DNA from: an uncultured Muribaculaceae bacterium
GTDB lineage: Bacteria > Bacteroidota > Bacteroidia > Bacteroidales > Muribaculaceae
Direction: 5' to 3'
Assembly (NCBI GenBank): GCA_944321715.1
Contig: CALUMJ010000012.1
Coordinates: 1-52,224 of the forward strand
Length of the DNA stretch: 52,224 nt
Below are positions 28,454 through 51,404 of this stretch, in pieces; the stretch's first letter is position 1; the number at the start of each line of letters is the position of its first letter. Below the pieces are notes generated by a model. It was not told the origin of the DNA and searched no databases. It saw nothing but the letters and a program-made list of their open reading frames with translations. The translations under genes and the position numbers were made by a program.

Positions 28454-28491
28454 GTCAGTACCCAGCAGTGTAAATCCCCACTAAAGGCATC

Positions 28492-28673: not shown

Positions 28674-28705
28674 TTTGCATTTATCGAGGATTGCCATTAC
28701 ATTTG
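28674..28705 (+). promoter_or_regulatory. Promoter of the C10-like gene
   Basis: A TTTG at 28674-28677, a 20-nt spacer and TACATTTG at 28698-28705 match the consensus. The rest of the 28454-28746 gap is AT-rich and holds nothing else that I can identify. Confidence 0.7.
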
Positions 28706-28746
28706 GGAAAATTTAACACCATAAAATAACCTAAAACTAAGCGATT

Positions 28747-29298: not shown

Positions 29299-29318
29299 CA
29301 CTAAAATATAATGAGATT

Positions 29319-29912: not shown

Positions 29913-29930
29913 GAATTACCCAAAATGCGT

Positions 29931-30108
29931 GAAGGCGTATCAAAATGCAAATTTGTGCAATTTTGTAGGGACGCACGGCCCGTGCGTCCGCTGCGCAATT
30001 AGGTACATATTCTATTAATTTACAGATGGTTAATTGAGCCTTGAGGCACACGGACGCACGGGCCGTGCGTCCCTACGAGGTTGGTACTGCCAATTTTGAT
30101 ACACCCTC
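29931..30108 (+). repeat. Palindromic MITE-like element, copy 4
   Basis: The ends are GGCGTATCAAAATGCAAATTT (from 29934) and ATTTTGATACACC (30093-30105). The hairpins are GGACGCACG/CGTGCGTCC with central GGC. It is the reference orientation for the family. It lies between the convergent barrel and MarR genes. Confidence 0.8.
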
Positions 30109-30511: not shown

Positions 30512-32959
30512 TCAGATAAACAGATTTACATTTGCCTGGTCGGCACGTTCCATATATGTTGCCACACCGCCGATGCTAACACAGTCGAGCAATTCCTCAC
30601 GCTGCACACCCATCACATCCATCGACATTTGGCAAGCAATAAACTCTACGCCATTGTCAATAGCCTGCTGGCGAAGCGATTCGAGCGAGTCAACGCCCTT
30701 CTTGTGCATCAGGTAGCGCATCATTTTCGCACCAATCCCCCACATATTCAGCTTTGAAAGATTCAGTTTGCGAGTGTCTGACGGTAACATCCATCCAAAC
30801 ATCTTGCCGAAAAAGTCTTTTTTAACAGCAGGTTTATGCACTTTCTTTATGGCATTAAGCCCCCAGAACGTGAAAAATATAGTAACTTTCTCGCCTGTGG
30901 CAGCTGCGCCGTTGGCAAGGACAAAAGTCGCCAAAGCCTTATCTAAGTCGTCGCTGAAAAGTATGAACGTCTTGCCCATGCTCCCGCTTGTTTGTGCCAT
31001 ACCTTGCCGTGGGGCTATTCCCGCTTTCTCTATTCTCACACTGTAAACGCCGTTCGCTTCCGATTTAGCAATAAATCGGTTGCCAGTCGAGCGGCACCAT
31101 GCCTCGGCATCGCGCGGGAATCCGGCATCGGTAGCACTCACCTCGATACATTGCCCCGGCTGCAACGCATCCATGCCTTTTTTCAATTTCAATATCGGGC
31201 CCGGGCACTGCACACCACAAGCATTAACCTTGACAACTGACACAGGACCGGTGCTTGGCTCCTGCTTGCTATTGGCAGCCTTGCTGGAAGTGTTTTCGGT
31301 CGGCATGGCCACTGGTTTCGTGGCGGCATTGTAAGTCTTGATACCTCCAACAAGGTTGCGGACATCGTTGAAACCATTCTCTTTTAATATGTTGCTTGCC
31401 AAGTATCCACGCAAGCCGACACCGCAATACACCCACACTGGCATGTCGCGCGGTATCTCGGCAATATGCCCGCGCAACTCGTCGAGCGGCAGGTTGATTG
31501 CAGCATTGATTGCTCCTAACTCAAACTCGTCGGAGGTGCGTACATCCACCAGCGTCACTTTGCTTAGGTCGGCATCGCGCAACTCGCGCCAATACAGCGG
31601 CGACATCTTCCCGCTCAATATGTTACCGGCAACATACCCGGCGATTGCCACAGGGTCTTTTGCCGAAGAAAACGGCGGGGCATACGCATGTTCGATTTGC
31701 GTCAGGTCATGCACTGTGCCACCGCGTTTTATGACTAATGCAAACTCGTCGATGCGCTTGTCAACACCATCGTAGCCAACAATCTGCGCCCCATATAGCC
31801 GTCCATCCTTCGGCGAAAATGTAACCTTGATGGCCATCTGCAATGCACCGGGGTAATAGCTTGCATGTGAAGCCGAGTGGGTTGTGGCTGTAAGATAGTC
31901 GATGCCCATCTGTTTCAACCGCTTTGCTGGCAATCCTGTCGATGCAACCGTGAGGTCAAATACCTTGGCAATAGACGTGCCTATGGAACCCTCGTATTTC
32001 ACCCGATTGCCAAACACTATATTATCGGCCACAATGCGTGCTTGGCGATTGGCCGGCCCTGCCAAGAAATTAAGCCACGGCTTGCCGGTGACTGGGTGCG
32101 GGAATTCTATCGCATCGCCCACGGCATACACATCATCGTCGGTTGTCTGCAAATATTCATTCACATAAATTCCCTTCATTTCGCCAAGTTTTAATCCTGC
32201 CTCGGCTGCCAAGCGGGTCTCGGCTCGCACACCGATAGAGAGGACAACCATGTCAACTTGGAGCCGCACGCCCGACTTGAATGCCACCAAGAGGCCGCCA
32301 TCAGCCTTCTCAAACGCCTCAACCGCCTGTTGCAAATATAGCCGCACGCCCTTCTGCGACAGATGCTCATGCACCAATGCCGCCATGGAATAATCAATCG
32401 GTCCCATCACTTGGTCGGCCATCTCAACGACCGACACTTCGACCCCGGCGTGTACCAGATTCTCGGCCATCTCCAAGCCGATAAAGCCGCCACCCACGAT
32501 AACGGCACGTTTCACTGCCTTTTCACCAAGATACCGCTTTATGCGGTCGGTGTCGCTCACATTGCGCAGCGTGAAGATGCCCTCCAAGTCAATTCCTTTC
32601 AACGGTGAGCGCACAGGCGATGCTCCTGGCGACAACAATAGCTTGTCGTAACCCTCCTGGTAGGTTTCACCGTCGGCACGACGCACTGTCACCGTCTTGC
32701 TTGCCCTGTTGATAGCAACCACTTCCGAACGTGTACGCACATCTATGTTGAACCGTCTGCCGAATGCTTCGGGAGTCTGCACAAAGAGCCGGTCGCGCTC
32801 CTCAATGACTCCCCCAATGTAATATGGCAAACCGCAATTGGCATACGAAATGTATTCACCCTTTTCAAACAATATGATTTCGGCTTTCTCGGTATTCCTG
32901 CGGATACGAGCCGCTGCCGTGGCACCACCGGCCACACCACCAACGATTATGACTTTCAT
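30512..32959 (-). CDS. CoA-disulfide reductase-rhodanese-TusA-DsrE fusion
   Basis: An 815-aa sulfur-handling flavoprotein. The start is set at MKVIIVGGVAGGATAAARI (32959), the FAD-binding N-terminus. Domains in order are a pyridine-nucleotide-disulfide reductase of the CoADR type (about 1-320, active Cys42 in YANCGLPYY), its dimerisation domain (about 330-440), rhodanese (about 455-540, Cys in VYCGVGLRG), TusA (about 575-650, CPGP) and a DsrE-like domain (about 665-815). The chain could pass persulfide sulfur from the reductase site along rhodanese, TusA and DsrE within one protein. It is co-transcribed with the MarR gene. Confidence in the domains is high; the physiological substrate is open. 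Confidence 0.9.
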   Translation of the reverse strand: MKVIIVGGVAGGATAAARIRRNTEKAEIILFEKGEYISYANCGLPYYIGGVIEERDRLFVQTPEAFGRRFNIDVRTRSEVVAINRASKTVTVRRADGETYQEGYDKLLLSPGASPVRSPLKGIDLEGIFTLRNVSDTDRIKRYLGEKAVKRAVIVGGGFIGLEMAENLVHAGVEVSVVEMADQVMGPIDYSMAALVHEHLSQKGVRLYLQQAVEAFEKADGGLLVAFKSGVRLQVDMVVLSIGVRAETRLAAEAGLKLGEMKGIYVNEYLQTTDDDVYAVGDAIEFPHPVTGKPWLNFLAGPANRQARIVADNIVFGNRVKYEGSIGTSIAKVFDLTVASTGLPAKRLKQMGIDYLTATTHSASHASYYPGALQMAIKVTFSPKDGRLYGAQIVGYDGVDKRIDEFALVIKRGGTVHDLTQIEHAYAPPFSSAKDPVAIAGYVAGNILSGKMSPLYWRELRDADLSKVTLVDVRTSDEFELGAINAAINLPLDELRGHIAEIPRDMPVWVYCGVGLRGYLASNILKENGFNDVRNLVGGIKTYNAATKPVAMPTENTSSKAANSKQEPSTGPVSVVKVNACGVQCPGPILKLKKGMDALQPGQCIEVSATDAGFPRDAEAWCRSTGNRFIAKSEANGVYSVRIEKAGIAPRQGMAQTSGSMGKTFILFSDDLDKALATFVLANGAAATGEKVTIFFTFWGLNAIKKVHKPAVKKDFFGKMFGWMLPSDTRKLNLSKLNMWGIGAKMMRYLMHKKGVDSLESLRQQAIDNGVEFIACQMSMDVMGVQREELLDCVSIGGVATYMERADQANVNLFI

Positions 32960-33098
32960 ACGCGCATATATTTTCTGTTGTTTATATTTTCCATTCGAAA
33001 CTTTTTCACAAAGAAAGCACCAAAATTCCAATAGAGAAAATTTCCACAGGAAAATATTCTATGCGTTAACATTTTTTTGTTGATTTAGGAATATAAAA

Positions 33099-33703: not shown

Positions 33704-33796
33704 TGTTTTTATCCCAAATTTACAACATTTCCCCCAAATGCCACACCTTTCCTGCCATCTAAAATCAAAAGAATAATTTGATTCTTATCCGAGAAT

Positions 33797-36700
33797 TCAA
33801 TGGAAATTAGAAGACAAAACCAAATCGGCCAATAATACAGCCGATTCAGCTTCTTCCTTAGAAGCATCTTTTGGCTTCCATGCAACAATGAAACGGACAG
33901 TAGCCGACTTCACTTTATAACCTTTTCCCTGCCACTCCAATAATTTTTCTTGCATTTTTTGCGACAACTTTGCCACAGGTTTATTAGCCGTATTATATAA
34001 AATAAAGTTTCGGTAATATAGCAAATCCTCACTCCTTAACGCTAACACGTCTTGCTTCAAATTCTTGAAAAATCCCAAGTTCACGTCCTTATGAGAAAGC
34101 TGTAAGACGATTTCGACAGGCATATCATAAACATTTTTATCAACAGAATATTTGTCGGCACAAAGCCCATCGAAACAAGCACCGCTTGTGTGAATGAACA
34201 AGCGTTTTTTTGCTCGTGTAATACCTACATAGAACCGACGCAAAAGACAATCGTCTTTCATATACCCACCCGATATGAACATATACACATCGTCAAATTC
34301 CCGCCCCTTAGCTTTATGGATAGTAGAAACTACTACATCCGACTGCGAAACGTCGCAAAAATCTTCAACTGACGATTCAAAAACAAACTCTTTAAAATCA
34401 CTGACATATTTAGTCTTATTGGTTTGTTCAAACAGTTCTGCACAGCGTTTCACATAAGCCAAACTTTGACTGCCCTCATAAGCCAAATATGTTGCACGCT
34501 TAGCGTCCTCCCATAGTTCGTCAGGAATAAGAGGCGCATTGGCACGCTTGTCGATATATTTCAAAAAGTACCTCACCTCGGCCAAATTCCAAAAACGCAA
34601 ACCATCCATCGACTGTATCAACTTACTGTTTATACCATATTTCCGTAAGAATGCAGTCATAATTACGGCTTCTTCATTGGTTTGCGTTAGTACACATGAA
34701 GTTCCTTTTCCCTCATTTTTCATTATTTTCTCGGCCAGTGGACGATACATGTATTGCGATTGATGCCGTGTCACTTCTACGAATCCATTTTCATCGCTCA
34801 TCGACTGTATGGGAGTGTTTTTCATTCTATTGCTTATTGCCATAGCAAAATTGTTGGCAAAATTTACAACATGCTTCGAGCTCCTATAATTTTCGGTCAT
34901 TTCAATAAAACGACTCCCTTGCTCTTGTGTCAAATCATACAAATATTTGGAATTGGAACCACGAAACTCATATATGTTCTGGTCGTCATCGCCTACTGCA
35001 ATCACACGCATTTCCTCGTTATTTGCCATCAAGGCTTTCACAAGCGCATGCTCATCTTCTCCCATGTCCTGAGCCTCGTCTATTACCAGCACCGTCTTGG
35101 CAATTCTATTGGGTTCCACTTCACCTTGATTTATCATTTTAGCAGCTTGTTCAACAACATTCTTGGCATCTTCGAGGTTCCCAACTCGTCCCAGAAGGTC
35201 AAAACAATAGGAATGAAATGTCTTGATTTCGACAAAATGAGCCGCATTTCCTATCAAACCCATGAGTCGTTGCTTAAATTCCGTAGCTGCCGCCCTTGAA
35301 AATGTGAGCATGAGAAGTTGCTCATGCTTGACATCTTCGAGCAATAGAAGCGAGGCGAGCTTGTGAACCAGCACACGTGTCTTGCCACTGCCCGGTCCTG
35401 CAGCAACTACAATACAACGCGACTCTTTGTCGGAAATAATTTCCATTTGGCGTTTTGACAACAATCCGAACAACTGTTCATATTTCTGCGGTGTCAAGTT
35501 CCGCTGTATTTCACCCGCTCTATCTCCTTTGAAATATTTGGCAATGAATTTCTTATAATCCATTTGAAAATAATCCTGCACATATCTCAATGCGGCATCA
35601 TAGTCCTTCACCATCAAATTGGCATATTCGCCCACAATATGTACCTGCTGGATTTTCTGCTTGTAAAATTCATTCAACATGCGATAGTCTTCCTGTTTGT
35701 ATCTCGACTTGCTGTCTTTAAGCCGCCGTATGTCCATGGCATTATAAAGGACTAAGAATCCACCATCAAGTTTAAGAGCACCGATTTTGGACAGATACAG
35801 AAGAGCCTCTTCAACATCTTCGAGTTTTATGTCGTCATGATTTAAAAAAAGTGTTTGATTTCCCGACTTAAATTCTCTGAGCAACTCTACGACCGAAAAT
35901 TGAATGGCTGCGTCTTTTGCGTCTTTTTTCTCTATCTGAGCAGCCATTCTGTAAAGCCACTCTACAGCGAAACGACTTATTTCCAATCGCTTCTCAAACC
36001 GTCGGAGTGTGGCATCCAAATCATAAAGACGACATAGCTCCATATTCCTGGCAGCATCCTCCTTTTTACGGGTATAACCCTTAACCGTCATGAAATAGAG
36101 CAACGTGCGTATGTCTTTCTCCTTTGATGAGGCAATGCCGTCATTAACAGCATTGTCGTTCAATTGCTTACATGATATTCTCAAAGCCCCATCTGGAATA
36201 TGGCTCAAAATATATTGTTCTAACCTTGCAAAACGTTCAAGCAGTGCCATCGCTTTCCGCTCCGAGTCGCCAGCGTCCATCAAATAGGCCGATATATCTT
36301 TACTATCTGCAAGAATACCTTCCTGCCGCATCCGTTCTATTGCCGAGATAACCTCACCCTTAGTCATACCCAAAATATCGGCAAGGTAATCAACTCGTGA
36401 TTCCGCCTCCGAATCCTGAGCCTTGGCAATATATTTCTGTGAAATTAACGATTTTATTATTCTGACAGCTTTTTCTATCTCTGCACTTTCAAAAAGAAGT
36501 GATGTGGCTATGCGCTGTCGTGCCTCGTCCATATTTTTCACTGTGATACCTGTGGCATAAACATGGGGAACATTATTACCTCGCTCAATATACCCACTTT
36601 GTTCCAAAGTTGCCAAAGCTGTCCTTACCCGTGTTTCAATATCCGAAACAGAATCATCCCAGCCTGCCTTCCGTGCTATTTCAAGAGCCGAACAACTGAC

Positions 36701-38677
36701 CCGCATACGTTGTTTCGTGAGGTCTTTAACAGCCTTCCACACTTGTTGTATTTCACTGATGCTTAATTTTGTCTGGTTTAGTAATATGAAATGTTTATCA
36801 AGGTCGTTATCGCCATACAGCACATAACATCGGGCATCAAGGTTAGGGTCGCGGCCAGCCCTCCCAGCCTCTTGCACATAATTTTCCAGAGAGTCGGATA
36901 TGTCATAATGTATCACAAGGCCGACATCTTTCTTGTCGACACCCATGCCAAAAGCCGATGTTGCCACAATGATGCGCACTTGGTCGCACATGAATGCATC
37001 TTGATTGGCAATCTTTTTGTCCGAATCCATTCTTCCGTTGAAAGGCAATGCCTTGTAACCATCCTTGCTAAGTTTGTTGGCAAGGTCGATGGCTCGTTTT
37101 GTTCGTGATACATAGACAATCGTCGGGCAATTCGATTCCGCAACCAGTGTCCTTAGTTTAAGATATTTATCACTGTCCGACTCAGCATGAATTACCGAAT
37201 AACGCAAATTAGTTCTTGAGGCTGTCGATGCAAATAGCTCCAGTTCAAGTCCTAACATCTGTTTGAAATAATCGCATATATCCTGCACGACCTTTTGCTT
37301 GGCAGTTGCTGTGAAACACGATATTGGTATAGGATTTTTACACCTTTTCTTTTTTTGATATTCCTTGATGAATTTACCAATGTAAAGGTAATCGACCCTG
37401 AAGTCTTGCCCCCACGAAGAAAAGCAATGAGCCTCGTCTATTACAAACCTGACAACGTACCGGGCCATCAAGATTCGTTCAATAGTCTTTGAACGAAGCA
37501 TTTCAGGAGCAATATATAGCAACGACGCCTCTCCATCATGAACTCGCTGTATCGACAACGCTCTGCTTATAGGGTCTAACATTCCATTAATAGTGACTGC
37601 ATCGGTAATGCCTTTTTCGGCAAGGTTGTCAACCTGGTCTTTCATCAATGATTGCAACGGCGAAATGACAACTGTCAGACCATGCACCGAACGACCCTCC
37701 ATGAGGGCAGGCAGCTGGAAAGTAAGCGATTTACCGCCTCCTGTGGGAAAAATCGCAAGCAACGATTTGCCCTGTACGGCAGCTTCGACTGCTTGCTCTT
37801 GAAGCGGTTCTCCTTCATAGGTACGGAATCGGTCATATCCGAAAAATACCTTGAGATTGTAGGACACGTCAAGCTGCTTGTTACAATAATCACAACCAGC
37901 ACCACAACGTACATGCCGCAAAATTCTCACGACATACTCAACATCAGGATAATTACGCAGCACCCAACCTGGCGTTATCGAGCGATAGTCGGTCGTGTCA
38001 ATCAATGCCAATGCGAACGCCAACTCACATGGATAGTTGTCAATCAGCGCGCCAATATCGGAATTACTGCATATTTTCCCATCATAAGTATTTTTTATAA
38101 GTTCGGCTAAGCCTGCATTTAAATATTCGGCGCAAACCATGCCGAGAAAGCCCTCAAATTCCTCCACGCCTTTTAATAGGGATGCAAAAATCAGGCGTTT
38201 GTCATTGGATAAAGATTTCCAGCGTGCAATTTCATCAAAGAGCAAATCCCTTGCTTTTTCGCAATCATTCACAGGATTATTCACTTGGTCGCTTTCCAAC
38301 TTGTCATCTTTCAGAAGCCTGTGATAAGGACGTTCGGGGAACAATAGTGGAGAAACATATAGGGTATCAACCAAAATCCATCGACTGGTTCTATCGGCAA
38401 ACAAATATTTAGCATCGTGATGAATAATGTTATGCCCGCATACATAATCTACCCCATCAATGAACTCATACAATTCATTTCTTGATGCTTTGTGAAAGAC
38501 AGCACCATCATAGCGTATTGCTCCTATGTCGTGCAATTTGTTATCTTGTAAACCAATCTCGGAATCTACTATGACATACCGAGATGCATCATGCGAAGCA
38601 ATAGACATTTTATTGCCAACTGTTTCGTTTGCATCATCAGACTTTCTAATTCTCATGATTTTATTCCAAATCGACAT
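33797..38677 (-). CDS. DEDD exonuclease-RecQ helicase-UvrD helicase fusion
   Basis: A 1626-aa protein with three catalytic modules. At 33-150 is a DnaQ/RNase T-like 3'-5' exonuclease with DEDD residues Asp38 and Glu40 (IVDSEIG), Asp88 in GHNIIHHDAKYL and Asp138 in NPVNDCEKA. A small HxxCxxxCxxC cluster lies at 255-265. At about 285-700 is a RecQ-type helicase, with Walker A FPTGGGKS (310-317), DEAH (414-417) and AGRAGRDPN. At about 1080-1560 is a UvrD/PcrA-like helicase, with AAGPGSGKT near 1094, IDEAQDMGEDE, STIHKAKGREFDDV and FYVGITRAKKRL. It is transcribed away from the jetABCD-like operon. It is probably a DNA-processing enzyme of a defence island, but a repair role is possible. Confidence 0.88.
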   Translation of the reverse strand: MSIWNKIMRIRKSDDANETVGNKMSIASHDASRYVIVDSEIGLQDNKLHDIGAIRYDGAVFHKASRNELYEFIDGVDYVCGHNIIHHDAKYLFADRTSRWILVDTLYVSPLLFPERPYHRLLKDDKLESDQVNNPVNDCEKARDLLFDEIARWKSLSNDKRLIFASLLKGVEEFEGFLGMVCAEYLNAGLAELIKNTYDGKICSNSDIGALIDNYPCELAFALALIDTTDYRSITPGWVLRNYPDVEYVVRILRHVRCGAGCDYCNKQLDVSYNLKVFFGYDRFRTYEGEPLQEQAVEAAVQGKSLLAIFPTGGGKSLTFQLPALMEGRSVHGLTVVISPLQSLMKDQVDNLAEKGITDAVTINGMLDPISRALSIQRVHDGEASLLYIAPEMLRSKTIERILMARYVVRFVIDEAHCFSSWGQDFRVDYLYIGKFIKEYQKKKRCKNPIPISCFTATAKQKVVQDICDYFKQMLGLELELFASTASRTNLRYSVIHAESDSDKYLKLRTLVAESNCPTIVYVSRTKRAIDLANKLSKDGYKALPFNGRMDSDKKIANQDAFMCDQVRIIVATSAFGMGVDKKDVGLVIHYDISDSLENYVQEAGRAGRDPNLDARCYVLYGDNDLDKHFILLNQTKLSISEIQQVWKAVKDLTKQRMRVSCSALEIARKAGWDDSVSDIETRVRTALATLEQSGYIERGNNVPHVYATGITVKNMDEARQRIATSLLFESAEIEKAVRIIKSLISQKYIAKAQDSEAESRVDYLADILGMTKGEVISAIERMRQEGILADSKDISAYLMDAGDSERKAMALLERFARLEQYILSHIPDGALRISCKQLNDNAVNDGIASSKEKDIRTLLYFMTVKGYTRKKEDAARNMELCRLYDLDATLRRFEKRLEISRFAVEWLYRMAAQIEKKDAKDAAIQFSVVELLREFKSGNQTLFLNHDDIKLEDVEEALLYLSKIGALKLDGGFLVLYNAMDIRRLKDSKSRYKQEDYRMLNEFYKQKIQQVHIVGEYANLMVKDYDAALRYVQDYFQMDYKKFIAKYFKGDRAGEIQRNLTPQKYEQLFGLLSKRQMEIISDKESRCIVVAAGPGSGKTRVLVHKLASLLLLEDVKHEQLLMLTFSRAAATEFKQRLMGLIGNAAHFVEIKTFHSYCFDLLGRVGNLEDAKNVVEQAAKMINQGEVEPNRIAKTVLVIDEAQDMGEDEHALVKALMANNEEMRVIAVGDDDQNIYEFRGSNSKYLYDLTQEQGSRFIEMTENYRSSKHVVNFANNFAMAISNRMKNTPIQSMSDENGFVEVTRHQSQYMYRPLAEKIMKNEGKGTSCVLTQTNEEAVIMTAFLRKYGINSKLIQSMDGLRFWNLAEVRYFLKYIDKRANAPLIPDELWEDAKRATYLAYEGSQSLAYVKRCAELFEQTNKTKYVSDFKEFVFESSVEDFCDVSQSDVVVSTIHKAKGREFDDVYMFISGGYMKDDCLLRRFYVGITRAKKRLFIHTSGACFDGLCADKYSVDKNVYDMPVEIVLQLSHKDVNLGFFKNLKQDVLALRSEDLLYYRNFILYNTANKPVAKLSQKMQEKLLEWQGKGYKVKSATVRFIVAWKPKDASKEEAESAVLLADLVLSSNFH

Positions 38678-38895
38678 AGTAGCATTACTTCAATATGGTT
38701 TATTCATATTCTAAATATACAAATATATAAAAAGCATATCATAAAAAGCGCAAAAAGGCATAAAACTCTTGACATTAACCTGAATTTATTCATAACAATA
38801 TATCACAATTCCCGAAGAAAAGACGGATAAAAAGGAGCTATGTCGTAATGCATTACAACCCAGTCACATACCTTACACAAACAGAGCTTCCCGTG

Positions 38896-39048
38896 CTAAT
38901 TAACAAATTTTGCGGCTTTAACACAACCATCGCCATCAATAGCCTTCAACAAGTATATACCATGAGAGAATTCTCCCACTTGAATAGTTCCAGCATCGGG
39001 CGTAGCCGGCCCTAACCGAGCATCAACGATGATGAAGAAAAGATGCAG
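38896..39048 (-). pseudogene. Remnant of a C-terminal sorting-type domain
   Basis: About 50 codons remain open on the minus strand, ending in a TAG at 38898-38896. The translated end contains GTIQVGEFSHGIYLLKAIDG and finishes KAAKFVN. This resembles the C-terminal secretion/sorting domain (Por-type) of Bacteroidetes exported proteins (GIYxxK ... KxxK). No matching upstream gene body exists, so it looks like the stump of a deleted or displaced gene. Similarity is by eye only. Confidence 0.45.
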
Positions 39049-39185
39049 CTAAACTGCGAAGTGAATTTAGCCGCATACTTGCAGTACCAGCGAACGCTCC
39101 AACAACAAAACACCAAAACTTTTATTTCATCACTACCCCACTCACCTCTAACTCTGGCAAAGTTGACAAATATACATCGAATGGT

Positions 39186-39214
39186 TTTGGTTTTCCAATA
39201 AAACTGTATCTTTG
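39186..39214 (+). promoter_or_regulatory. Probable promoter of the jet-like operon
   Basis: TATCTTTG at 39207-39214 is a perfect -7 element. TTTG at 39186-39189 lies 17 nt upstream, slightly short of the usual 19-21. The first gene starts about 80 bp downstream. Confidence 0.5.
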
Positions 39215-39295
39215 CCAAAAAGATACTAATGCCTGCAACTATGCTGCAAAAACGTTTACCAATGTCTTTTAAAAGGCTGTGAAAATGTGTGATAT

Positions 39296-40492
39296 ATGCC
39301 AACCTACAATTCCATACGCGAACTGACACGAGGGCTTCAACAGGGTGCGAAACTGCTGAACGACATGTTCATCAAGAGAAAGACCGTGCCGATAAAATAT
39401 GACGACGCAGTGGAAACCCTCGATGGAGATGAAAATAGATTGAAACATTTGATTAGCTTCGGTGTCATAGTGCTGTCGGGCGACATACTTGAACTCGACG
39501 ACACCTACCAACGTTTCTTTGAGGAAGTGCTTGCTGTCAACGAAGATATAAATGTCGCTTCGGTACAAACTTATATTTCAAAGTTGAAATTAGGAATAAA
39601 CTCGTTTTTGGCCGCCGACACTCCTGCCCGGAAAGCTCAATACCTCAGGGAAATACGACACACGTTTAAGAGCATCGAAAATGCGACACGGCGCAATGTG
39701 GTTGACCTTAAACGCAATGTAGAACAGACCTACAAGCAAGAACCTAATTTCAAAATAAAAGAGCTGCGGCTGCGCGACTTCGACGAAAAAGCAAGACTTA
39801 TCGCCGAACTCGTGAAGCAGACAGAACGGGTCATGGACGAACAGACAATTTTCTTTGCCAACGCAGCTTCTGATGTTGGATTAAGGCAGACTATCGGCGA
39901 AGTGAAAGAAGGATTGCATGAATCTTCACATGCACTAATATCCATTTCGGCACAGATTATCGACTACCTCAACCGCATAGAATACCAAAGCAAAATCGTA
40001 AAGAAAGTCAGGCAGTTGAAATACTTGAAAGACCAGTTAATGATAGAGGAAAGCACCGACATAAAAAGCACACTTGGCAAGATTGACGACTTGTGGATGG
40101 AAAAACAGCCCAAATATATCACCCGCGTTTCACTCGATTTCCTGCGGGACAACGATGCCGCATTGGAGATACTCAGGAACATACGGCGCAGGTTGTCAAA
40201 GAAAACTACCATCAAAGCGCGATTGGCTGGCCGCATAGACGAGAAATACCTCATCGAAAACAAAGAAATTGGCCGAATGTTCAATCATGCCGAAATCATG
40301 AATGGCTTTTTTGCCCAAGGTAACGACCTTTTCAGCTATGTGTGGAACTATGATTTTACAATGGACGCAAATGAAGAGATGCGGCTCGTGCTGTTCCTTC
40401 AATTAGCCTCACAGTATGATGCGAAGCTGAAATACCTGCCAGAAACCAAGACAATTAACAACATTGAATATCCATTAATCTTCTCAAAATAA
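39296..40492 (+). CDS. jetA: JetA-like subunit of a Wadjet (SMC-type anti-plasmid) system
   Basis: A 398-aa helical protein. Position, size and neighbours match JetA, the kleisin-like (MukF-like) subunit of Wadjet. The N-terminal part (about 1-100) looks like a winged-helix region, and a long helical/coiled-coil middle follows (EIRHTFKSIENATRRNVVDLKR; about 120-260). No catalytic motif is expected or seen. In Wadjet, JetA bridges the SMC heads and recruits JetB. Identification rests on operon order more than on sequence recognition. It is followed 8 bp later by the JetB-like gene. Confidence 0.7.
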   Translation: MPTYNSIRELTRGLQQGAKLLNDMFIKRKTVPIKYDDAVETLDGDENRLKHLISFGVIVLSGDILELDDTYQRFFEEVLAVNEDINVASVQTYISKLKLGINSFLAADTPARKAQYLREIRHTFKSIENATRRNVVDLKRNVEQTYKQEPNFKIKELRLRDFDEKARLIAELVKQTERVMDEQTIFFANAASDVGLRQTIGEVKEGLHESSHALISISAQIIDYLNRIEYQSKIVKKVRQLKYLKDQLMIEESTDIKSTLGKIDDLWMEKQPKYITRVSLDFLRDNDAALEILRNIRRRLSKKTTIKARLAGRIDEKYLIENKEIGRMFNHAEIMNGFFAQGNDLFSYVWNYDFTMDANEEMRLVLFLQLASQYDAKLKYLPETKTINNIEYPLIFSK

Positions 40493-40500
40493 AACCAAGC

Positions 40501-41052
40501 ATGAAATATACCAGCGAAGTATTCCAACGATTGTCAAAAGGTCAATTCATTTCAAGCAATAGCATTGATTTTGAGACTCGCGCCATTTACAACGACATCG
40601 AAGAAAACCAGCAGGAATATGAAGAATATTTCCGCTTGATTGACTTTATCCTGTCAGCAGGAGATGGATTCTACTATTTCAGCAGGCGCGAAGCCCGGGT
40701 AAATATTGAAAACAAACTTCAATCACTTTTTTCTTGGATTGACTACTTGGATTTCCTGAAGACATACGACACTACATTTGATGCCGGCACACAATTCTCA
40801 TTAGCACAGATGGAAATAAGACTTTCGGCCGACCTTGAACTGAAAGAGAAACTCTCAAGGCTATTTCAAGACAAGCAATCAAACCGCGACAAGCTCGAAG
40901 CCCTTGCGAATGCGATGCTTAACATGGGGTTCGCCGAACAGACCAACGAAGCCGAAGGCCGCTACCAAGTGACTTCGGCATTCCATTACATAGAACAAAT
41001 AATATCCTGCATAAACATCGACGAGGAGGTGAAAGATGAGATACCTGAATAA
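40501..41052 (+). CDS. jetB: JetB-like subunit of a Wadjet system
   Basis: A 183-aa protein in the place and size range of JetB (MukE-like winged-helix subunit that binds the kleisin). It is helical with several aromatic segments (FYYFSRREARVNIENKLQSLFSWIDYL is split here across about 58-84) and a C-terminal winged-helix-like ending (MGFAEQTNEAEGRYQVTSAFHYIE, near 140-165). No other domain is recognised. Its last 17 bp overlap the JetC-like gene, indicating translational coupling. Confidence 0.68.
   Translation: MKYTSEVFQRLSKGQFISSNSIDFETRAIYNDIEENQQEYEEYFRLIDFILSAGDGFYYFSRREARVNIENKLQSLFSWIDYLDFLKTYDTTFDAGTQFSLAQMEIRLSADLELKEKLSRLFQDKQSNRDKLEALANAMLNMGFAEQTNEAEGRYQVTSAFHYIEQIISCINIDEEVKDEIPE
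41023..41033 (+). promoter_or_regulatory. Strong Shine-Dalgarno site before the JetC-like gene
   Basis: GAGGAGGTG lies just before the ATG at 41036, inside the end of the JetB-like gene. Such a strong site stands out in a genome whose leaders mostly lack one, and it supports this start and the overlap. Confidence 0.6.
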
Positions 41053-44000
41053 AATCATATTCATAAACAGTGCCCACATACCATACACCGAAATACGCCT
41101 TGACGGCAACGTCCATTTTATAGGCACACAGGGAGTGGGGAAATCGACTTTGCTCCGTTCGATACTGTTCTTTTACAACGTGGACAAGAGCAAATTAGGC
41201 ATACGCACCCAAGACAAACAAAAAAGTTACGACGAGTTTTATTTCCCGTATCCAAATTCGTATATCATTTATGAGGTATGCCGTGAAAACGGAAAATTCT
41301 TCGTGATGACTTTCGCATCCAACGGTCGGGTGGCATTCCGCATTGTCGATTGCCCCTACGAGAAACGCTTCTTTGTGGACGAGGACAACAACGCAAGATA
41401 TGAATGGGGGCGGATAAGTGAACAAATAGGAACAAAAGTCTTCCGGAGCAACATCATCAGGGGGTACGAGGAATTCCGCGACATAATATATGGCAATCTG
41501 CAGAATGTGGCAAAAGAATTACGCCGCTTCAACTTGATGGAAAGCCCGCGGTACCAGAACGTGCCACGGACAATCCAAAACATCTTCTTAAACCAAAGCC
41601 TTGAATCGCGCGTCATCAAAGACACCATAATCGATTCAATGGATTTTGCCAACGACAGCATCGACCTTAATTTCTACAGAGAGCATGTAAAATATTTTCG
41701 CCAGCAATACGAAGATATATGGAAATGGTATAAACGTGACAAAAACGGCAGAGTCAAAGTAAAGTCTGATGCCGAAAACGTCATATCTAAATATTCACTC
41801 TATGAATTGACAAAAAGAGCAGTAAAGGAGTTATGCGCAAAGCTCAATTTTGCAATAGTGCGCGACACTGAAAGATTGCCCATGCTAAGCGAACATATAA
41901 ACACCAAAAACATGGAGCTCTCACGACAACGGCGGCTGCTCGACGAAGAAGAAACCAAGCACAACAAGGAACGTGACACGCTGAAAGGGAAAGAAGCCGT
42001 CTTGACCGATTTCCTGAAACAGGTGAAAACCAAAATGCAGCATTATTCCGAAATAGGCATTGATGGAATTATCGAGAAAATATCGAATGAAAAGGGGCTG
42101 CACATTCGCAAAGACTATCTGACACAACAAGAGGATGCCTTGACCAGCAAAAACAATAGCGTTAAAAGCCGGTATGATGCCATGATACAGAGCTTAGACA
42201 ATAGCTTAGCCGAATACCGACTCCAGGCCGAGCGGCGTATTAACGAGATTGAACGCCAACTGACCGGAGAGATTGCGAGAATACAGGCCGAACAGGCTTC
42301 AAAACAGAACGAGGCAAATCAAGCATACCAACAAAAAATCGACGACCTGCAAGAGAGCATCGACGCAGCCACGCAAGAGAAAACATCACTGAAACTGCAA
42401 GAGCAAAAGGCGCAGCATTCCAACCCGTTCGAGCAAGAGATGGGCAGCTTGTCGGCACAAATCCGCGAATTAGAGGAACGAAAGCACTCGCTGGCCTTTG
42501 AAATAGAACAAAAACAGCACAATATTACAAACATCGAGAATGAAACCGCAGCCAAGCGAAAAGAATTTGAAAATGCCTGCGAGAAAGACTTGCTGGAAAT
42601 CAAGCATAAGCACGCAGAAATAAGGCACGAAATAGACGGGCTTAAAGAGCTACTGTCGCGGCAAGAAGGGTCGTTCATAGAGTGGCTCGACGAGAACCTT
42701 GATGGCTGGAAAGACACCATAGGCAAGGTTGTTGGCGATGACATACTTTACAGCACTTCGCTCCATCCACAAAAGATAGGTAGCACAAGTTCTCTATACG
42801 GCATCGGCATTGAATTGCAAAATATAACGAAGACAATAAACACCCCCGATGAAATACGCTCACGGATAAACATTCTTGAGCAGGAAATGAGCGCACTCGA
42901 CAAGAAAGCGACAGACAGGCAACGCCGGCTCGAAAACGACATTAAAGAGCTGGAACGACTCCCGTCCATGAAATTAAAAACTTTGCGCATCGACAAAATC
43001 AACTTGGAAACAGAGCTAAGACAAATTCCAGTCCGAATCGACCGTTGCAACAAGACCCTTGCTGAATACCAAACCCGCCTTAATGAGTGGAGGGAACGGG
43101 AACTCAACTCCATAAGGACACAAATAGCGAAAACCGAAGAACAGATAGACAAATTGAAGTCATCGAAACGGCAGACCCTTGACCAAAAACGCAAAGATGC
43201 CGAAAACCTAAGCAAAGCCTTTAACAACCGAAAGAAAGAAATTGAAACTTCGGCAAAACAAAAAATCGAGCAAATAAACGCCGACGTGAAACAGCAAGAA
43301 ACATCAGTCGCCGACGGCAAAAGGGAATTGGAAGCCCAGATGACCGCCGAATTGAAAGGACTCGGCGTTGATGTTGACAAGCTTGCTGAAATCAGAGCAG
43401 AATTGCAGCAAATTGCCAATAAACTGGCATACATCGAGAACCATCGTGCCGATTACTATTCTTGGTTAAATGACAAAAAAGATTATTTCGATTTGGAATT
43501 ATCCAAGAAAGAAGAACGAAAGCAATTGCTGCAAAGTTTAAATGAGCTCCAGCATAAATTCGACCTGCGGAAACAAAAATTAATGGATGCGATTAGGTTG
43601 CTTTCCGAAGAAATCGAATCGCTAAAAAACGAAAAAGCTAAAATAGATGAAGCCATAAAACGGACAAACACATTTATAGCCAACCCGACTTGCCCTCACA
43701 ATATTGCCGAAGCAGGAACTAAGGAAACGCAAGAACCGCTCTCCGAAATTTTGGATAGCCTCAGAGACAACATCGGCAGCCAGCAGCAGCGCATGGAAGA
43801 GTTTAAGAAAGCCGTAACTGTGTTCAAAAGTAATTTCTCTCCACAAAACACGTTCCACTTCAGGACAGAATTCAACACCGAGGAAGACTATACCGAATTT
43901 GCATCGGAACTAAACGAATTCATGTCGAACACAAAAATCGAAGAGTACCGCAAACGAACCAGCAGCCAATATGCGAGCATAATCAAACGCATAGCCCGTG

Positions 44001-44692
44001 AAGTGGGCGACTTGAGCCAACACGCTGCCGACATAAAGGCAACCATAAATGAAATAAACCGCGATTTCAGGGAAAACAACTTTGCTGGAGTTATCAAGGA
44101 AATTGAACTTCGTGCCGTGGAAAGCAGCGACAGGCTGATGCAGCAGTTGCTGAACATAAAAAAGTTTGACGAAGAGTATGGATTTGACATCGGAAACCTT
44201 AACCTGTTCTCGACCGAAGACACATTAAACCGCACAAACGAACGGGCTGTAAAATTGCTGATGAGCCTCATTGACATGATGGATATTGAGCAAAAACGTG
44301 ATAAAATCACACTCGCCGACACATTCAAGCTCGAATTTAAAGTCAAGGAAAACGACAACGATACCAACTGGGTGGAGAAACTGTCGAATGTGGGGTCGGA
44401 CGGAACAGATATCCTTGTGAAATCAATGGTGAACATAATGCTAATCAACGTGTTCAAGCGTAAAATATCCAGGCATTTCGGCGATTTCAAACTGCACTGC
44501 ATGATGGACGAAATAGGGAAACTACATCCCGACAATGTCGAAGGTATATTGAAGTTTGCCAACGTGCGTAACATTTTCCTCATAAACAGCTCGCCCACTA
44601 CATATAACGCCCAAGTGTATAAATACACATACTTGCTTAGCAAAGACGAGAAGAGCAACACCATAATAAAAACATTATTAACCATGAGATGA
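41036..44692 (+). CDS. jetC: JetC-like SMC/MukB-type ATPase
   Basis: A 1218-aa ATPase with split SMC architecture. Walker A is GTQGVGKST at 30-38. A long coiled coil runs from about 270 to 900, broken near 540-600 where the hinge would lie (WLDENLDGWKDTIGKVVGDD). A signature-like SNVGSDGTDILVKSM is near 1117-1131, and the Walker B CMMDEIGKLHPDN is near 1155-1167. The second Asp/Glu pair needed for hydrolysis is present. In Wadjet, the JetABC motor extrudes DNA loops and senses small circular DNA. Start chosen by the strong Shine-Dalgarno. Its stop overlaps the next start by 4 bp. Confidence 0.82.
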   Translation: MRYLNKIIFINSAHIPYTEIRLDGNVHFIGTQGVGKSTLLRSILFFYNVDKSKLGIRTQDKQKSYDEFYFPYPNSYIIYEVCRENGKFFVMTFASNGRVAFRIVDCPYEKRFFVDEDNNARYEWGRISEQIGTKVFRSNIIRGYEEFRDIIYGNLQNVAKELRRFNLMESPRYQNVPRTIQNIFLNQSLESRVIKDTIIDSMDFANDSIDLNFYREHVKYFRQQYEDIWKWYKRDKNGRVKVKSDAENVISKYSLYELTKRAVKELCAKLNFAIVRDTERLPMLSEHINTKNMELSRQRRLLDEEETKHNKERDTLKGKEAVLTDFLKQVKTKMQHYSEIGIDGIIEKISNEKGLHIRKDYLTQQEDALTSKNNSVKSRYDAMIQSLDNSLAEYRLQAERRINEIERQLTGEIARIQAEQASKQNEANQAYQQKIDDLQESIDAATQEKTSLKLQEQKAQHSNPFEQEMGSLSAQIRELEERKHSLAFEIEQKQHNITNIENETAAKRKEFENACEKDLLEIKHKHAEIRHEIDGLKELLSRQEGSFIEWLDENLDGWKDTIGKVVGDDILYSTSLHPQKIGSTSSLYGIGIELQNITKTINTPDEIRSRINILEQEMSALDKKATDRQRRLENDIKELERLPSMKLKTLRIDKINLETELRQIPVRIDRCNKTLAEYQTRLNEWRERELNSIRTQIAKTEEQIDKLKSSKRQTLDQKRKDAENLSKAFNNRKKEIETSAKQKIEQINADVKQQETSVADGKRELEAQMTAELKGLGVDVDKLAEIRAELQQIANKLAYIENHRADYYSWLNDKKDYFDLELSKKEERKQLLQSLNELQHKFDLRKQKLMDAIRLLSEEIESLKNEKAKIDEAIKRTNTFIANPTCPHNIAEAGTKETQEPLSEILDSLRDNIGSQQQRMEEFKKAVTVFKSNFSPQNTFHFRTEFNTEEDYTEFASELNEFMSNTKIEEYRKRTSSQYASIIKRIAREVGDLSQHAADIKATINEINRDFRENNFAGVIKEIELRAVESSDRLMQQLLNIKKFDEEYGFDIGNLNLFSTEDTLNRTNERAVKLLMSLIDMMDIEQKRDKITLADTFKLEFKVKENDNDTNWVEKLSNVGSDGTDILVKSMVNIMLINVFKRKISRHFGDFKLHCMMDEIGKLHPDNVEGILKFANVRNIFLINSSPTTYNAQVYKYTYLLSKDEKSNTIIKTLLTMR

Positions 44693-45549
44693 AAATAACT
44701 GAAGCACTTATTGCCAAATTTATCAGGCTGGCAAGAGGGGAGTCGCTGCCAGCCAGCAGTCTTAAAGGAGATTTTATAGAACAAATGCTTTCTGATGGAA
44801 TACTTGTAACAAGTGCCAAAGGTAGCAGGAAAAACATACGTGCGCAGTATGAACAATCGCTGAGGGATTACTTGGCTACGCATCTTGATATTAGAAACCT
44901 CGAAGCATATCATGCCATACTAAACAAAGAAAATGCAAGCAAGGCAGAACAAGTAAAAGCAACCGGCAATTCCAAAACAAGGCAACAACGCTCTTTCTGC
45001 GGCTTTCTAATTAACAGTTACGACCCGATACCAGCCACACTTGCAGGCAGAGAGATTGAGATTCTGCCCGAAGACGGGACATTCATGTTCATATACGACT
45101 TCAAGACATTCTCTATTCCCGATAATGTGGCGGTTGTGGGCGTAGAAAATGCCGAGAATTTTAGGTACATACGTGAGCAACGTTGGCTTTTTGAATCGTG
45201 TATTCCCAAAGGCGTAAAACTGCTTTTCGTTTCCCGATACCCCCAAAGTGGCGATTTACTGGAATGGTTATTGGCAATTCCTAATCAATACATACACTTT
45301 GGTGACCTCGACTTGGCCGGGGTTCATATATACTTGAGCGAATATTACAAGCACCTCGGCGACAGAGCGTCATTTTTGATACCCGAGGATTACGAGGCGA
45401 GAATTGCCATGGGTAGCCGGGAAAGATATGACGACCAATATGGCAAATTCCACAAAATGGAAATTCAAGATTCTCGGTTGATACCCCTTGTAGCTTGCAT
45501 CAACAAGTTACATAAAGGGTATGACCAAGAAGGTTTCATCATGGGATAA
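44689..45549 (+). CDS. jetD: JetD-like TOPRIM nuclease subunit
   Basis: A 286-aa protein matching JetD, the nuclease that cuts circular DNA once JetABC has gripped it. The N-terminal part (about 1-65) looks like a winged-helix DNA-binding region. The C-terminal TOPRIM domain has the acidic Glu153 in VVGVENAENF and the DxD pair Asp206/Asp208 in FGDLDLAG. The C-terminus YDQEGF has a Glu in the place expected for this family. It is shorter than many JetD proteins (about 390 aa). Its ATG overlaps the JetC-like stop by 4 bp. Confidence 0.8.
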   Translation: MKITEALIAKFIRLARGESLPASSLKGDFIEQMLSDGILVTSAKGSRKNIRAQYEQSLRDYLATHLDIRNLEAYHAILNKENASKAEQVKATGNSKTRQQRSFCGFLINSYDPIPATLAGREIEILPEDGTFMFIYDFKTFSIPDNVAVVGVENAENFRYIREQRWLFESCIPKGVKLLFVSRYPQSGDLLEWLLAIPNQYIHFGDLDLAGVHIYLSEYYKHLGDRASFLIPEDYEARIAMGSRERYDDQYGKFHKMEIQDSRLIPLVACINKLHKGYDQEGFIMG

Positions 45550-45592
45550 AACTGGAAATTTGCCACGCACAGGCAGCAGAAGTCCTTTGTCG

Positions 45593-46107
45593 TCAGTTTG
45601 TCTTCCGTTCCGTTTTTATTGTTTTCTTCCATGGCTTACAAACTGATACGACAACGACAAGCATCAGGCAGACTACCTGAATGATTCCCCAAAAGATGGT
45701 TTGCGAAATATTATCCCAATAGGCATCGGCATTGACCGCATAGTCTGCCAGTCTTTCGGGCGGATACACGTTCCCGTTCACGCAAGGCCCCATCAGGAAT
45801 GTTCCCGAAGCCATCATGAACAGCGTGAACACCCACTTCAATGCCACCCATCGGTGCTTGAAAAATCCCCAAGGAGTAAACAGGCTGTAAAGCAATCCCG
45901 TGACCACACATCCGTTTGCACCCGGAATAATCAGGAAGTCGTCTATGATTTTCAGAGTCAGGGCATACATGTACATCTCATGCTCTCCCGACGGTGATAC
46001 CCACGTCAGCAATGCAGTCATTCCGATAGCCCTCCAGCCCAAAGGACAACGCACAGAAAGTGCAGCACCTTCAATGCTTTCACACATTTAGCATTCAATC
46101 TTATCAT
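45593..46107 (-). pseudogene. Frameshifted four-segment membrane protein gene
   Basis: The intact-looking frame (from 46087) encodes membrane segments and PWGFFKHRWVALKWVFTLF, but it lacks the usual first segment. In another frame, an ATG at 46107 gives MIRLNAKCVKALKVLHFLCV followed by VLWAGGLS, the expected N-terminus of this DUF2269-like family, and then stops. A one-base change near 46022-46030 would join the two into a protein of about 171 aa. It is therefore a probable recent frameshift, or a sequencing error. Function unknown. Confidence 0.65.
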
Positions 46108-46120
46108 ATCCTATTTTTTG

Positions 46121-46285
46121 TTAAGTTGTTATATTTCCAAATCTCCTATCCATACCTAGGTAATTCTCCAAAGAAAGTGCATATACGGTAACGTATTCCA
46201 CCCCAAGTTCCGTTATCGTCTTGAGCGTATCAAACACCACACGGCTTCCTATAAAGTGTCCATAATTTCTGTCCCCCTTTTTTCA
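46121..46285 (-). pseudogene. Fragment of isoprenyl transferase (UppS-like)
   Basis: On the minus strand an open stretch encodes GDRNYGHFIGSRVVFDTLKT and then ITELGVEYVTVYALSLENYL before a stop at 46121. These match the GHxxGxxxV and LGVxYLTVYAFSTENW segments of undecaprenyl diphosphate synthase. The catalytic N-terminus and the C-terminal half are missing, and a stop lies just upstream. It is a gene remnant, with the functional copy presumably elsewhere. Confidence 0.6.
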
Positions 46286-46309
46286 TAACTCTTCTTACCT
46301 CGAACCCAC

Positions 46310-46374
46310 GTATACATGGCACGTTACTTCCGCCGCCGCACCGGCTTCACTCCTAATGAATTCCGCAACCAATG
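46310..46374 (+). pseudogene. C-terminal fragment of an AraC-family regulator
   Basis: About 20 codons encode YMARYFRRRTGFTPNEFRNQ and a stop. This is the end of the second helix-turn-helix of AraC/XylS regulators. Nothing of the rest of the gene is left upstream. It lies 11 bp from the 3' end of mutS. Confidence 0.6.
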
Positions 46375-46385
46375 AGATACATTGC

Positions 46386-48998
46386 TCAATCCCGGCCGGT
46401 TATAATCTTCTTTATATCATTGAGTTTGTTAAGTGCCTGCATCGGCGTGAGATTGTCAATGTCAACGTGCAAAATTTCATCGCGCACCTGGCATAGCACT
46501 GGGTCGTCGAGCTGGAAGAACGAAAGTTGCATTCCGCCCGCAGCCGGAGCTTCGCATATATTCAACGGTTGCTTCTCGCCACGGTTGTTTTCTTCGAGTT
46601 GATGCAACACCTCGTTGGCACGTTCGACAATCGATGGCGGCATACCGGCAAGTTTTGCCACATGTATGCCGAAACTGTGTTCGCTACCACCGCGCACGAG
46701 TTTGCGCACAAATACCACTTTACCATCAATCTCTTTCACCGACACATTATAATTGGCTATGCGCTTATAGGTTTTCTCCATTTCGTTTAGCTCATGGTAA
46801 TGAGTGGCAAATAGTGTCTTTGGGTGCGCTTTCCCATTCTCGTGCAGATATTCCACGATTGACCATGCTATGGATATGCCATCGTAGGTGCTTGTGCCGC
46901 GCCCCAGCTCGTCAAACAATATCAGGCTACGTTCGCTTATGTTGTTAAGGATAGAAGCCGCTTCGGTCATTTCCACCATGAATGTCGATTCGCCAAGCGA
47001 GATATTGTCGCTCGCTCCGACACGGGTGAAAATCTTATCGACAATACCTATTTTTGCGGCATCGGCTGGAACAAAACACCCTATTTGCGCCATCAACACA
47101 ATCAGGGCAGTCTGCCGCAGCAAAGCCGACTTACCGGCCATGTTTGGCCCTGTTATCATGATTATTTGCTGGTCGTCGTTGTTTAACTTGATATTGTTCG
47201 ACACATATTTCTCGCCTATCGGCAACTGGCGTTCAATCACCGGATGCCGCCCCTCGGTGATGTCGATGTCGAGCGAATCGTCAAGCACAGGACGCACATA
47301 ACGGTTGTCGGCGGCAGCCTGGGTAAAGGCGAGCAGACAATCAAGCCGTGCAATCAGGTTGGAATCGACCTGTATGGCAGGGATATAATCGGCAACGGCA
47401 GTCACAATCTCGTTGAACAGCCGCATCTCGATTGATATGATTTTCTCTTCGGCTCCAAGGATTTTTTCCTCGTATTCTTTCAATTCCTGCGTCACATATC
47501 GCTCGGCACTCACCAACGTCTGCTTGCGCACCCATTCGGGCGGCACTTTGCTCTTGTGCGTGTTGCGCACCTCTATGTAGTAGCCAAACACGTTGTTGTA
47601 GCTTATTTTCAAGCTCGGGATTCCCGTGCGCTCGCTCTCGGCCTGTTGCAGCTTCATCAGGTAGTCTTTGCTCGAATGCGATATTTCGCGCAACTCGTCA
47701 AGCTCGGCATTCACACCGGGGCATATCACGTTGCCTCGGTTTGCCATGTTGGAGGCATCGGGATTTATCTCACGCTCGATACGGTCGCGGACAATCTTGC
47801 ACGGGTTGAGTTGCTCTCCTATATGGCGCAATACTTCGTTGTCGGCATTCGTGCAAAGGTCTTTTACAGGTTCGATTGCCACTAAGGCATTTTTCAATTG
47901 CACGAGTTCGCGGGGCGTGATGCGCCCCACTGCCACTTTCGACACGAGCCGCTCGATGTCGCCTATCATTTCTAACTGCCGCTTGAGCGTGTCGCGGGCA
48001 GCCGTGTCGCGGAAGAAATATTCCACCACGTCTAAGCGGTTATTGATTTGCCGCACATCTTTCAACGGGAATATAATCCACCGCCGCAACATGCGGGCAC
48101 CCATCGGCGTGAGAGTGCCATCAATGACCGACAACAGGCTCTTGCCATCTTCACTCATCGAACATACAAGTTCGAGGTTGCGCACCGTGAATTTGTCTAA
48201 CCTGACGTATCGTTCCTCCTCGATGCGCGACAACATGGTGATGTGGCCTATGTGCGTGTGCTGCGTGATGTCGAGGTAGTGCAGCACTGCTCCCGAAGCC
48301 ACTATTGCATTGTGCATCGACTCGATGCCAAACCCTTTCAGGTTTTTCGTTTCAAAATGCTTCAGCAGCCTGTCGGTTGCAGCCTCCTCGGTGAAAATCC
48401 AGTCATCGAGGTCGAATGTGAGGTATTTTGCCGAGAATGTTTCGGCAAACCGCTTGCGGTTGCTGCGTTCCACAAGCACCTCCTTGGGCGAAAAATTACC
48501 GAGCAGCTTGTCGATATAGTCGGTAGCACCTTCGGCAGTTAGAAACTCGCCCGTACTCACGTCGAGGAACGCCACGCCACAAGTGCGCTTGCCGAAATGC
48601 ACGGCCGCAAGGAAGTTGTTTTCGCGGTTGTTGAGAATGTTGTCGTTGAACGATACCCCCGGCGTTACCAGTTCGGTAATGCCACGTTTCACCAACTTAC
48701 GGGTTAGTTTAGGGTCTTCCAATTGCTCGCAAATGGCCACTCGCTTGCCAGCACGCACCAACTTAGGCAAATATGTGTCCAATGCATGGTGTGGGAAACC
48801 GGCAAGCTCCACATATTGTGCCGAACCATTGGCGCGGCGGGTGAGCGTGATACCGAGTATTTCAGAACTGGCTATCGCATCCTCCGAGAATGTTTCATAA
48901 AAGTCGCCCACACGAAACAACAGGATTGCATCGGGATGCTTCTTCTTCATCTCGAAATATTGTTTCATGAGCGGTGTCTCGACTACCTCCTTTGCCAC
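46386..48998 (-). CDS. mutS: DNA mismatch repair protein MutS
   Basis: An 870-aa mismatch-recognition ATPase. The mismatch-reading Phe-x-Glu is in GDFYETF (Phe33, Glu35). The ATPase has Walker [10 protein letters not shown] (near 615), [13 protein letters not shown] (near 695) and the C-terminal dimer helix. The start is a GTG at 48998; an in-frame stop lies two codons upstream, and the next ATG would remove the conserved ETPLMKQY N-terminus. The minus-strand TAATTTTG at 49032-49025 probably forms its -7 element. Confidence 0.95.
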
Positions 48999-51363: not shown

Positions 51364-51404
51364 TTATACTCATTAAAAAAATAAGCAATAGCCTGAAAAT
51401 AAAC

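Follow-up and report, generated by a model that had tools for sequence, protein, structure and literature searches.

A probable divergent Wadjet/MksBEFG operon and an adjacent exonuclease-like-RecQ-UvrD fusion gene beside mutS in an uncultured Muribaculaceae bacterium

The stretch of DNA analysed here (the window) comprises 52,224 nt of contig CALUMJ010000012.1, part of a 2.8-Mb, 88-contig genome assembly of an uncultured Muribaculaceae bacterium. Beside mutS it carries four tightly packed genes, jetA to jetD, and a divergently transcribed gene whose product joins an exonuclease-like fold, a RecQ helicase and a UvrD-like helicase in one chain (hereafter the fusion; Table 1). The jet operon spans positions 39296-45549, with a gap of 8 bp between jetA and jetB and overlaps of 17 bp between jetB and jetC and of 4 bp between jetC and jetD. 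A first-pass annotation of the window had described these five open reading frames (ORFs) and the translational coupling of the jet genes, and both hold, the ORFs lying as stated; it had also proposed that the operon is Wadjet-like and that the fusion is functionally tied to it. On the evidence presented below, we regard it as quite probable that the operon belongs to a divergent Bacteroidales branch of the Wadjet/MksBEFG systems, and that the fusion is a separate, horizontally moving helicase-nuclease lying beside mutS.

Wadjet/MksBEFG is the best reading of the operon because of the predicted fold of JetA, the Pfam matches of JetB and JetC, and the invariant residues of JetD. JetB matches the Pfam family MksE (PF21980, 8e-40) and, among the models of PADLOC-DB 2.0.0, JetB1 (4.4e-4). 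JetC matches DUF3584 (PF12128, 3.4e-68) and, weakly, the PADLOC models JetC1 (2.2e-6) and JetC2 (8.5e-6); the motifs GTQGVGKST (Walker A) and CMMDEIGK (Walker B), already pointed out in the first-pass annotation, are present, and G30, Q32, G33, G35, K36, D1158 and E1159 are invariant among 15 aligned JetC proteins. A Lamassu system was considered and rejected, the LmuB models touching JetC only (7.8e-7, a partial match) and the other operon genes having no Lmu match. JetD matches DUF7281 (3.5e-5, under the curated cut-off) and PADLOC JetD3 (3.2e-4), and up to 12 of 17 JetD relatives match PADLOC JetD1. Across the subunits the PADLOC matches fall on models of different types (JetB1, JetC1 and JetC2, JetD3), and their scores single out none of Wadjet types I, II and III. 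The acidic residues singled out earlier (Glu153 and the DxD motif at 206/208) are invariant in 17 aligned proteins, as is E281; judged by this residue pattern, JetD is a TOPRIM protein with metal-binding acidic residues.

JetA is related to the MukF/JetA kleisins by predicted fold only. Searched against PADLOC, Pfam and NCBIfam, JetA reaches the cut-off of no family, and the 14 members of its alignment gave neither a consistent family match nor a PADLOC JetA match; a profile comparison with the JetA-D families, as had been suggested, recovers JetB, JetC and JetD weakly and leaves JetA unmatched. The AlphaFold2 model of JetA (predicted local distance difference test, pLDDT, 76.5; predicted template-modelling score, pTM, 0.43) finds as its best Foldseek matches the MukBEF chains 9gm7_C (7.3e-5) and 7nz2_C1 (2.5e-4), followed by E. 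coli JetABCD (8q72_E, 2.9e-3), MukF (1t98_A, 3.2e-3) and MukE-MukF (3euh), the chain identities being taken partly from PDB entry titles. TM-scores of about 0.2 make this a domain-level match, and the JetA domains may be flexibly linked. Profiles of JetA, JetB, JetC and JetD found no relevant match among PDB sequences (one profile was searched at 1e-5 only). The jet alignments retained near-full-length rows (16 of 17 in A2, 15 of 16 in A3 and all in A1 and A4). As a statement of kinship the Wadjet reading is well supported; function would carry over from characterised systems.

Table 1. Positions of the operon, the fusion gene and associated features in the window
Feature	Position	Strand	Evidence
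jetA/mksF-like kleisin, 398 aa	39296..40492	+	ORF; winged-helix-like N-terminal part, long helices, helix-strand C-terminal part
jetB/mksE KITE subunit, 183 aa	40501..41052	+	PF21980 MksE 8e-40
jetC/mksB SMC-like ATPase, 1218 aa	41036..44692	+	PF12128 DUF3584 3.4e-68
Short jetD/mksG-like TOPRIM nuclease, 286 aa	44689..45549	+	DUF7281 3.5e-5; weak PADLOC
DEDD-fold exonuclease-like + RecQ + UvrD fusion, 1626 aa	33797..38677	-	TIGR01389, PF00580, N-terminal model
AT-rich block without DNA match to the sister stretches compared	33735..46385	.	GC content and blastn
Predicted membrane protein, 164 aa, inside the block, outside the operon	45593..46087	-	weak match to DUF2269 (0.0095, under cut-off)
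Bacteroidetes-type -33/-7 promoter motif facing the fusion	38720..38754	-	motif scan
Bacteroidetes-type -33/-7 promoter motif facing jetA	39186..39214	+	motif scan

The JetC family is sparsely distributed: it occurs in 19 of the 295 Bacteroidales genomes sampled across the order, in three of nine genomes of the genus (the window's own included, the other two copies being 35-38% identical to it), and in two of 395 genomes of a phylum-wide sample, both inside the order; beyond the order it was found in records of Persicobacter (Cytophagales). The gene order A-B-C-D recurs in Bacteroidales relatives where the contig allows, an exception being L069 with a longer jetC-jetD gap; at L075, a 346-aa ORF (L075:7597-8637) lies between jetB and jetC. 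Five loci carry JetABC with no detectable JetD, namely L068, L071, L215 (Parabacteroides distasonis), L220 and L221 (Persicobacter), a count that excludes L070, where the contig ends. L068 adjoins what we take to be ilv-like genes and L071 presumably thi-like genes, judged by their first residues; the L215 genes adjoin an NAD(+) synthase gene. Repeated loss of JetD among these relatives is probable, because in the JetC tree the JetD-less L071 pairs with L217, a locus that keeps JetD. Three distant relatives on proteobacterial plasmids show an apparent order C-B-A-D, the gene names following from length and position and the last gene encoding about 281-285 aa, and seven proteins of L218, L224 and L225 had weak or no match in PADLOC. 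The highest identity to the window's JetC (72%) is that of a 71-residue JetC start (L065:9-215, genome G122) at one end of a 3.5-kb contig on which no other jet gene is labelled, and L222 has an insertion-sequence-like transposase gene within its SMC-like region. In the three annotated jet relatives that were checked, the genes are named only 'ATP-binding protein' or 'hypothetical protein'. With PADLOC scores near noise and annotations this generic, plasmid defence may be commoner in gut Bacteroidales than present counts suggest, and the JetD-less loci offer material for testing the interconversion of plasmid defence systems and chromosome condensins.

The first-pass annotation had described the fusion as a three-module protein of 1626 aa, and both helicase modules are borne out by sequence. 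The RecQ core occupies residues 275-670 (TIGR01389, 3.2e-92; TIGR00614, 262.8 bits against a cut-off of 219.8) and the UvrD-like helicase residues of about 1073-1497 (PF00580, 1.4e-32, and PF13361, both above cut-off). The third module, a putative 3'-5' exonuclease, is seen by predicted fold only: residues 30-268 have no relevant Pfam or PDB sequence match, and the exonuclease and middle segments found nothing relevant among PDB sequences. The N-terminal model (pLDDT 87.4) best matches DinG (3.0e-3, probability 1.00), then Pol I, B-family Pol and NrnC, none below 1e-3, with other RNase H-like folds lower. D38, E40, D88 and D138 are invariant in 19 aligned fusions (alignment A5 keeps 19 of 22 sequences, leaving out L054, L059 and L062; A6 and A7 keep 18, also without L100). 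In DEDDh and DEDDy exonucleases a His or Tyr is expected in motif III before the last Asp. The fusions lack it, having in the Bacteroidota rows shown Asn (in a few Ser) at position -5 and Asn or Asp at -4, with 12 of the 13 phylum-sample loci included and L212 left out; Asn is also found in the four readable Aliarcobacter and proteobacterial fusions. Because Asn takes the place of the motif III His/Tyr, the exonuclease may have no activity, or a different residue, such as the invariant H119, may serve as the base. This His, 19 residues before the last Asp, belongs to a signature PYHxLxKD...NNPxxD at residues 118-138. At L054, a gene for a 683-aa protein that resembles a portion of the fusion (3e-56; L054:4798-6849) directly adjoins a full fusion gene.

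The fusion occurs in 23 of the 295 genomes of the order, some copies being contig-end fragments or interrupted by stops, in five of the nine genus genomes and in 15 of the 395 phylum-sample genomes, all 15 with an open frame of at least 1601 aa; 13 of these lie outside the order. Long relatives were found on plasmids of Aliarcobacter (97% query coverage) and alphaproteobacteria (about 88%); NZ_OY725908 and NZ_OY725754 are also labelled plasmids, of which at least NZ_OY725754 looks chromosomal (rpmA, gcvT). Across eight genus-mates MutS is 86-95% identical, whereas the fusion is only 75-77% identical in the four that bear it, and the closest fusions from other families of the order stand at the same level (73-77%). 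Such low within-genus identity relative to MutS points to horizontal movement of the fusion. Among phages, 21 records matched the fusion, none over more than 80% of the query, and the 10 listed match the RecQ part. Among the titles listed by the literature searches, none describes this fusion family.

Neighbourhoods were compared for 101 fusion genes other than the window's (102 locus ids), drawn from 21 order-sample genomes, four genus genomes and 76 of 80 database matches after removal of four duplicates; the count excludes G067, whose contig is short, and takes in no flanks from the 13 phylum genomes outside the order. The 80 loci are the best of 528 confirmed matches and lean to close relatives of the window's fusion; at 65 of them the fusion ORF reaches at least 1500 aa, the rest being cut by the contig or apparently interrupted. 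A jet gene lies near at least two of the 101 in the flank seen, which is a lower bound set by flank length (of the 80 stretches, 62 span 12 kb or more and 39 span 18 kb or more), and none was seen for the other 99. The two arrangements differ from that of the window: L196 has jetABC about 3.8 kb downstream of the fusion, running to the edge of the stretch, and L192 has a lone jetD, without the usual N-terminus, 2.75 kb downstream (L192:17549-18364). Beside this jetD is a protein of 693 aa that we take to resemble DUF262 restriction proteins. Random placement, on the assumption that 19 of 295 genomes, each of 2.5-3.5 Mb, carry a single jet operon, predicts 0.02-0.03 such fusions (P for two or more, 2e-4 to 4e-4); the first-pass annotation had named adjacency no more frequent than chance as speaking against its proposal, and strictly the observed adjacency exceeds that level. 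From the jet side the fusion was absent from all 29 loci found, several of them on short contigs; given those short contigs and a chance expectation also near zero, this argues against a fixed unit, not against enrichment. Fusion and JetC occur together in four of the 295 order genomes, in the three besides the window's on different contigs, and leaving out the window's genome the co-occurrence does not reach significance (three of 294 genomes, where 1.35 would be expected; p 0.14). In none of the 13 fusion-bearing phylum-sample genomes outside the order was the window's JetC family found. An excess over chance fits two accessory genes sharing variable sites, and we see the fusion best as an incidental neighbour, not a regular Wadjet partner, the two being accessory genes at one variable site; the functional tie proposed earlier is not supported, and a single system with a conserved neighbourhood was rejected on the counts from both sides.

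The operon and the fusion share an AT-rich block, as the first-pass annotation had sensed: its guanine-plus-cytosine (GC) content is 0.41-0.45 as against 0.47-0.54 in most flank windows, two of which (28001-30000 and 50001-52000) are equally low at 0.44-0.45. By blastn, similarity to the sister genome G295 stops at 33734, after a flavin-reductase-like gene, and similarity to eight sister mutS stretches stops at 46383-46396, at the mutS stop; the comparison covered 11 sister-genome stretches. DNA at 45593-46386 is present in one of nine genus genomes, the window's own. In G295 about 8.4 kb separate mutS from a type I methyltransferase gene (L105:658-2223) on the side equivalent to the block, and no simple empty site was found there because the left and right flanks are on different contigs. 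An insertion with terminal repeats was rejected, the search giving only short, chance-like repeats; scans with PADLOC, Pfam and NCBIfam found no integrase among the block's main ORFs, and no tRNA, or Rfam RNA at gathering score, lies within the window. The 618-bp spacer between the fusion and jetA had been read as one shared control region. This reading was discarded since the spacer holds two separate promoter motifs, one towards each side, of what we take to be the Bacteroidetes type (eight matches in the window against 2.2 expected). A search with the spacer returned only itself, so it is not a genomic repeat. Farther left, 982 bp at 28957-29938 are 98.9% identical to G295, with only 81-85% on both sides, and this tract is either recently exchanged or strongly conserved; at 30512-33031, an 839-aa chain combines CoA-disulfide-reductase, rhodanese, TusA and DsrE2-like domains, and has relatives in five of the nine genus genomes, its own included.

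Several observations weigh against the reading of the locus as a divergent Wadjet branch with an unrelated neighbour. JetA has no family match, and its model has low overall confidence and low TM-scores; JetD falls 60-123 aa short of each of the three PADLOC JetD profiles that it matches (346, 387 and 409); the PADLOC Wadjet models score near noise, with Lamassu LmuB slightly above the JetC models on the SMC protein; the five JetD-less loci may mean that the SMC core also serves the chromosome; and the two additional fusions near jet genes exceed random expectation. The JetD-less loci, some beside housekeeping genes, and the Pfam MksE match would also suit a chromosome-organising condensin, MksBEF-like and not defensive. 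One study reports finding, in the two Bacteroidetes strains that it covered, nothing homologous to the known condensins (PMC10197239). We hold the condensin interpretation to be unlikely, for the window's copy retains jetD with its invariant acidic residues, and the family is patchy in the order and, within the genus, both infrequent and divergent. Operon and fusion might alternatively form one defence unit, in which JetD would linearise plasmids for the fusion to degrade or unwind, as their divergent adjacency in the window and the neighbourhoods of L196 and L192 could suggest; the 99 fusions without jet genes, the 29 jet loci without a fusion, the differing orientation and spacing among the three known cases, the separate promoter motifs and the insignificant genome co-occurrence make this very improbable.

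What the fusion does by itself is a more balanced matter. RecQ and UvrD are repair helicases, and a plain repair or recombination helicase with no role against mobile elements is a serious contender, if somewhat short of an even chance. Its neighbours fit that role: their Pfam families are mixed, none in more than five of 135 proteins, the 25 families listed out of 116 include sigma-70, HSP70, AcrB and cytochrome bd, and their PADLOC matches are scattered. Against it stand the patchy, horizontally spread distribution and the presence on plasmids, since a core repair enzyme would be expected to be distributed more evenly. As for defence genes nearby, PADLOC (at 1e-20) matched 60 families among 135 of the 137 proteins directly flanking the fusion at the 80 loci, two long ones having been dropped; among the 25 families listed, four PDC-S01 models each have 3-5 members and the other 21 have one. 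The control, 114 proteins around mutS in eight sisters and the window's flanks, with mutS itself excluded, matched 32 families, of which the 25 listed have one member each and are nearly all type I or II restriction-modification. Distinct proteins were not counted, and the comparison is suggestive only. A bolder proposal, which we find doubtful, is that the fusion, with its atypical exonuclease site (the motif III Asn), is by itself a defence system of a single gene, as yet undescribed, that spreads horizontally across Bacteroidota and Proteobacteria and destroys invading DNA end-first; in a few genomes it would be stacked with a Wadjet operon that supplies those ends.

If the divergent Wadjet/MksBEFG reading is right, then by analogy with characterised systems, to whose subunits those of the window are matched by sequence and predicted fold, JetABC would act as an SMC motor reeling in DNA, and once a small closed circle had been fully extruded, the TOPRIM protein JetD would cut it. 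The DEDD-RecQ-UvrD protein would have arrived independently at the variable site beside mutS, and would most likely unwind and process DNA ends or branched DNA alone, as a defence or repair enzyme, without Wadjet.

Among known systems, the operon resembles Wadjet, MksBEFG and EptABCD in its four-gene kleisin-KITE-SMC-TOPRIM plan (PMC10586767, PMC10123090), and in a JetA model resembling MukF/JetA and a JetD that retains the TOPRIM acidic residues. It differs from Wadjet in very low sequence similarity and in a JetD of 286 aa where the matched profiles measure 346-409. In MksG, nuclease activity is reported to be impaired by the substitutions E236A and D279A, and a role has been proposed for E349/E351 (PMC10123090); the E153/D206/D208/E281 pattern of JetD resembles this, a likeness of pattern and not of residue alignment. 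JetA, JetB and JetC also correspond to MukF, MksE and MksB of the MksBEF/MukBEF condensins, from which the window's operon differs in retaining a nuclease gene, one that some of its relatives lack. The fusion, for its part, has intact helicase motifs like RecQ and UvrD/PcrA. Its exonuclease-like fold ahead of the RecQ core recalls WRN, a RecQ helicase with an exonuclease in front, and DinG, the best match of its N-terminal model, likewise combines an exonuclease with a helicase. It departs from the DEDDh/DEDDy exonucleases in its motif III, and from RecQ, UvrD/PcrA, WRN and DinG alike in uniting two helicase cores of different superfamilies in a single chain of 1626 aa.

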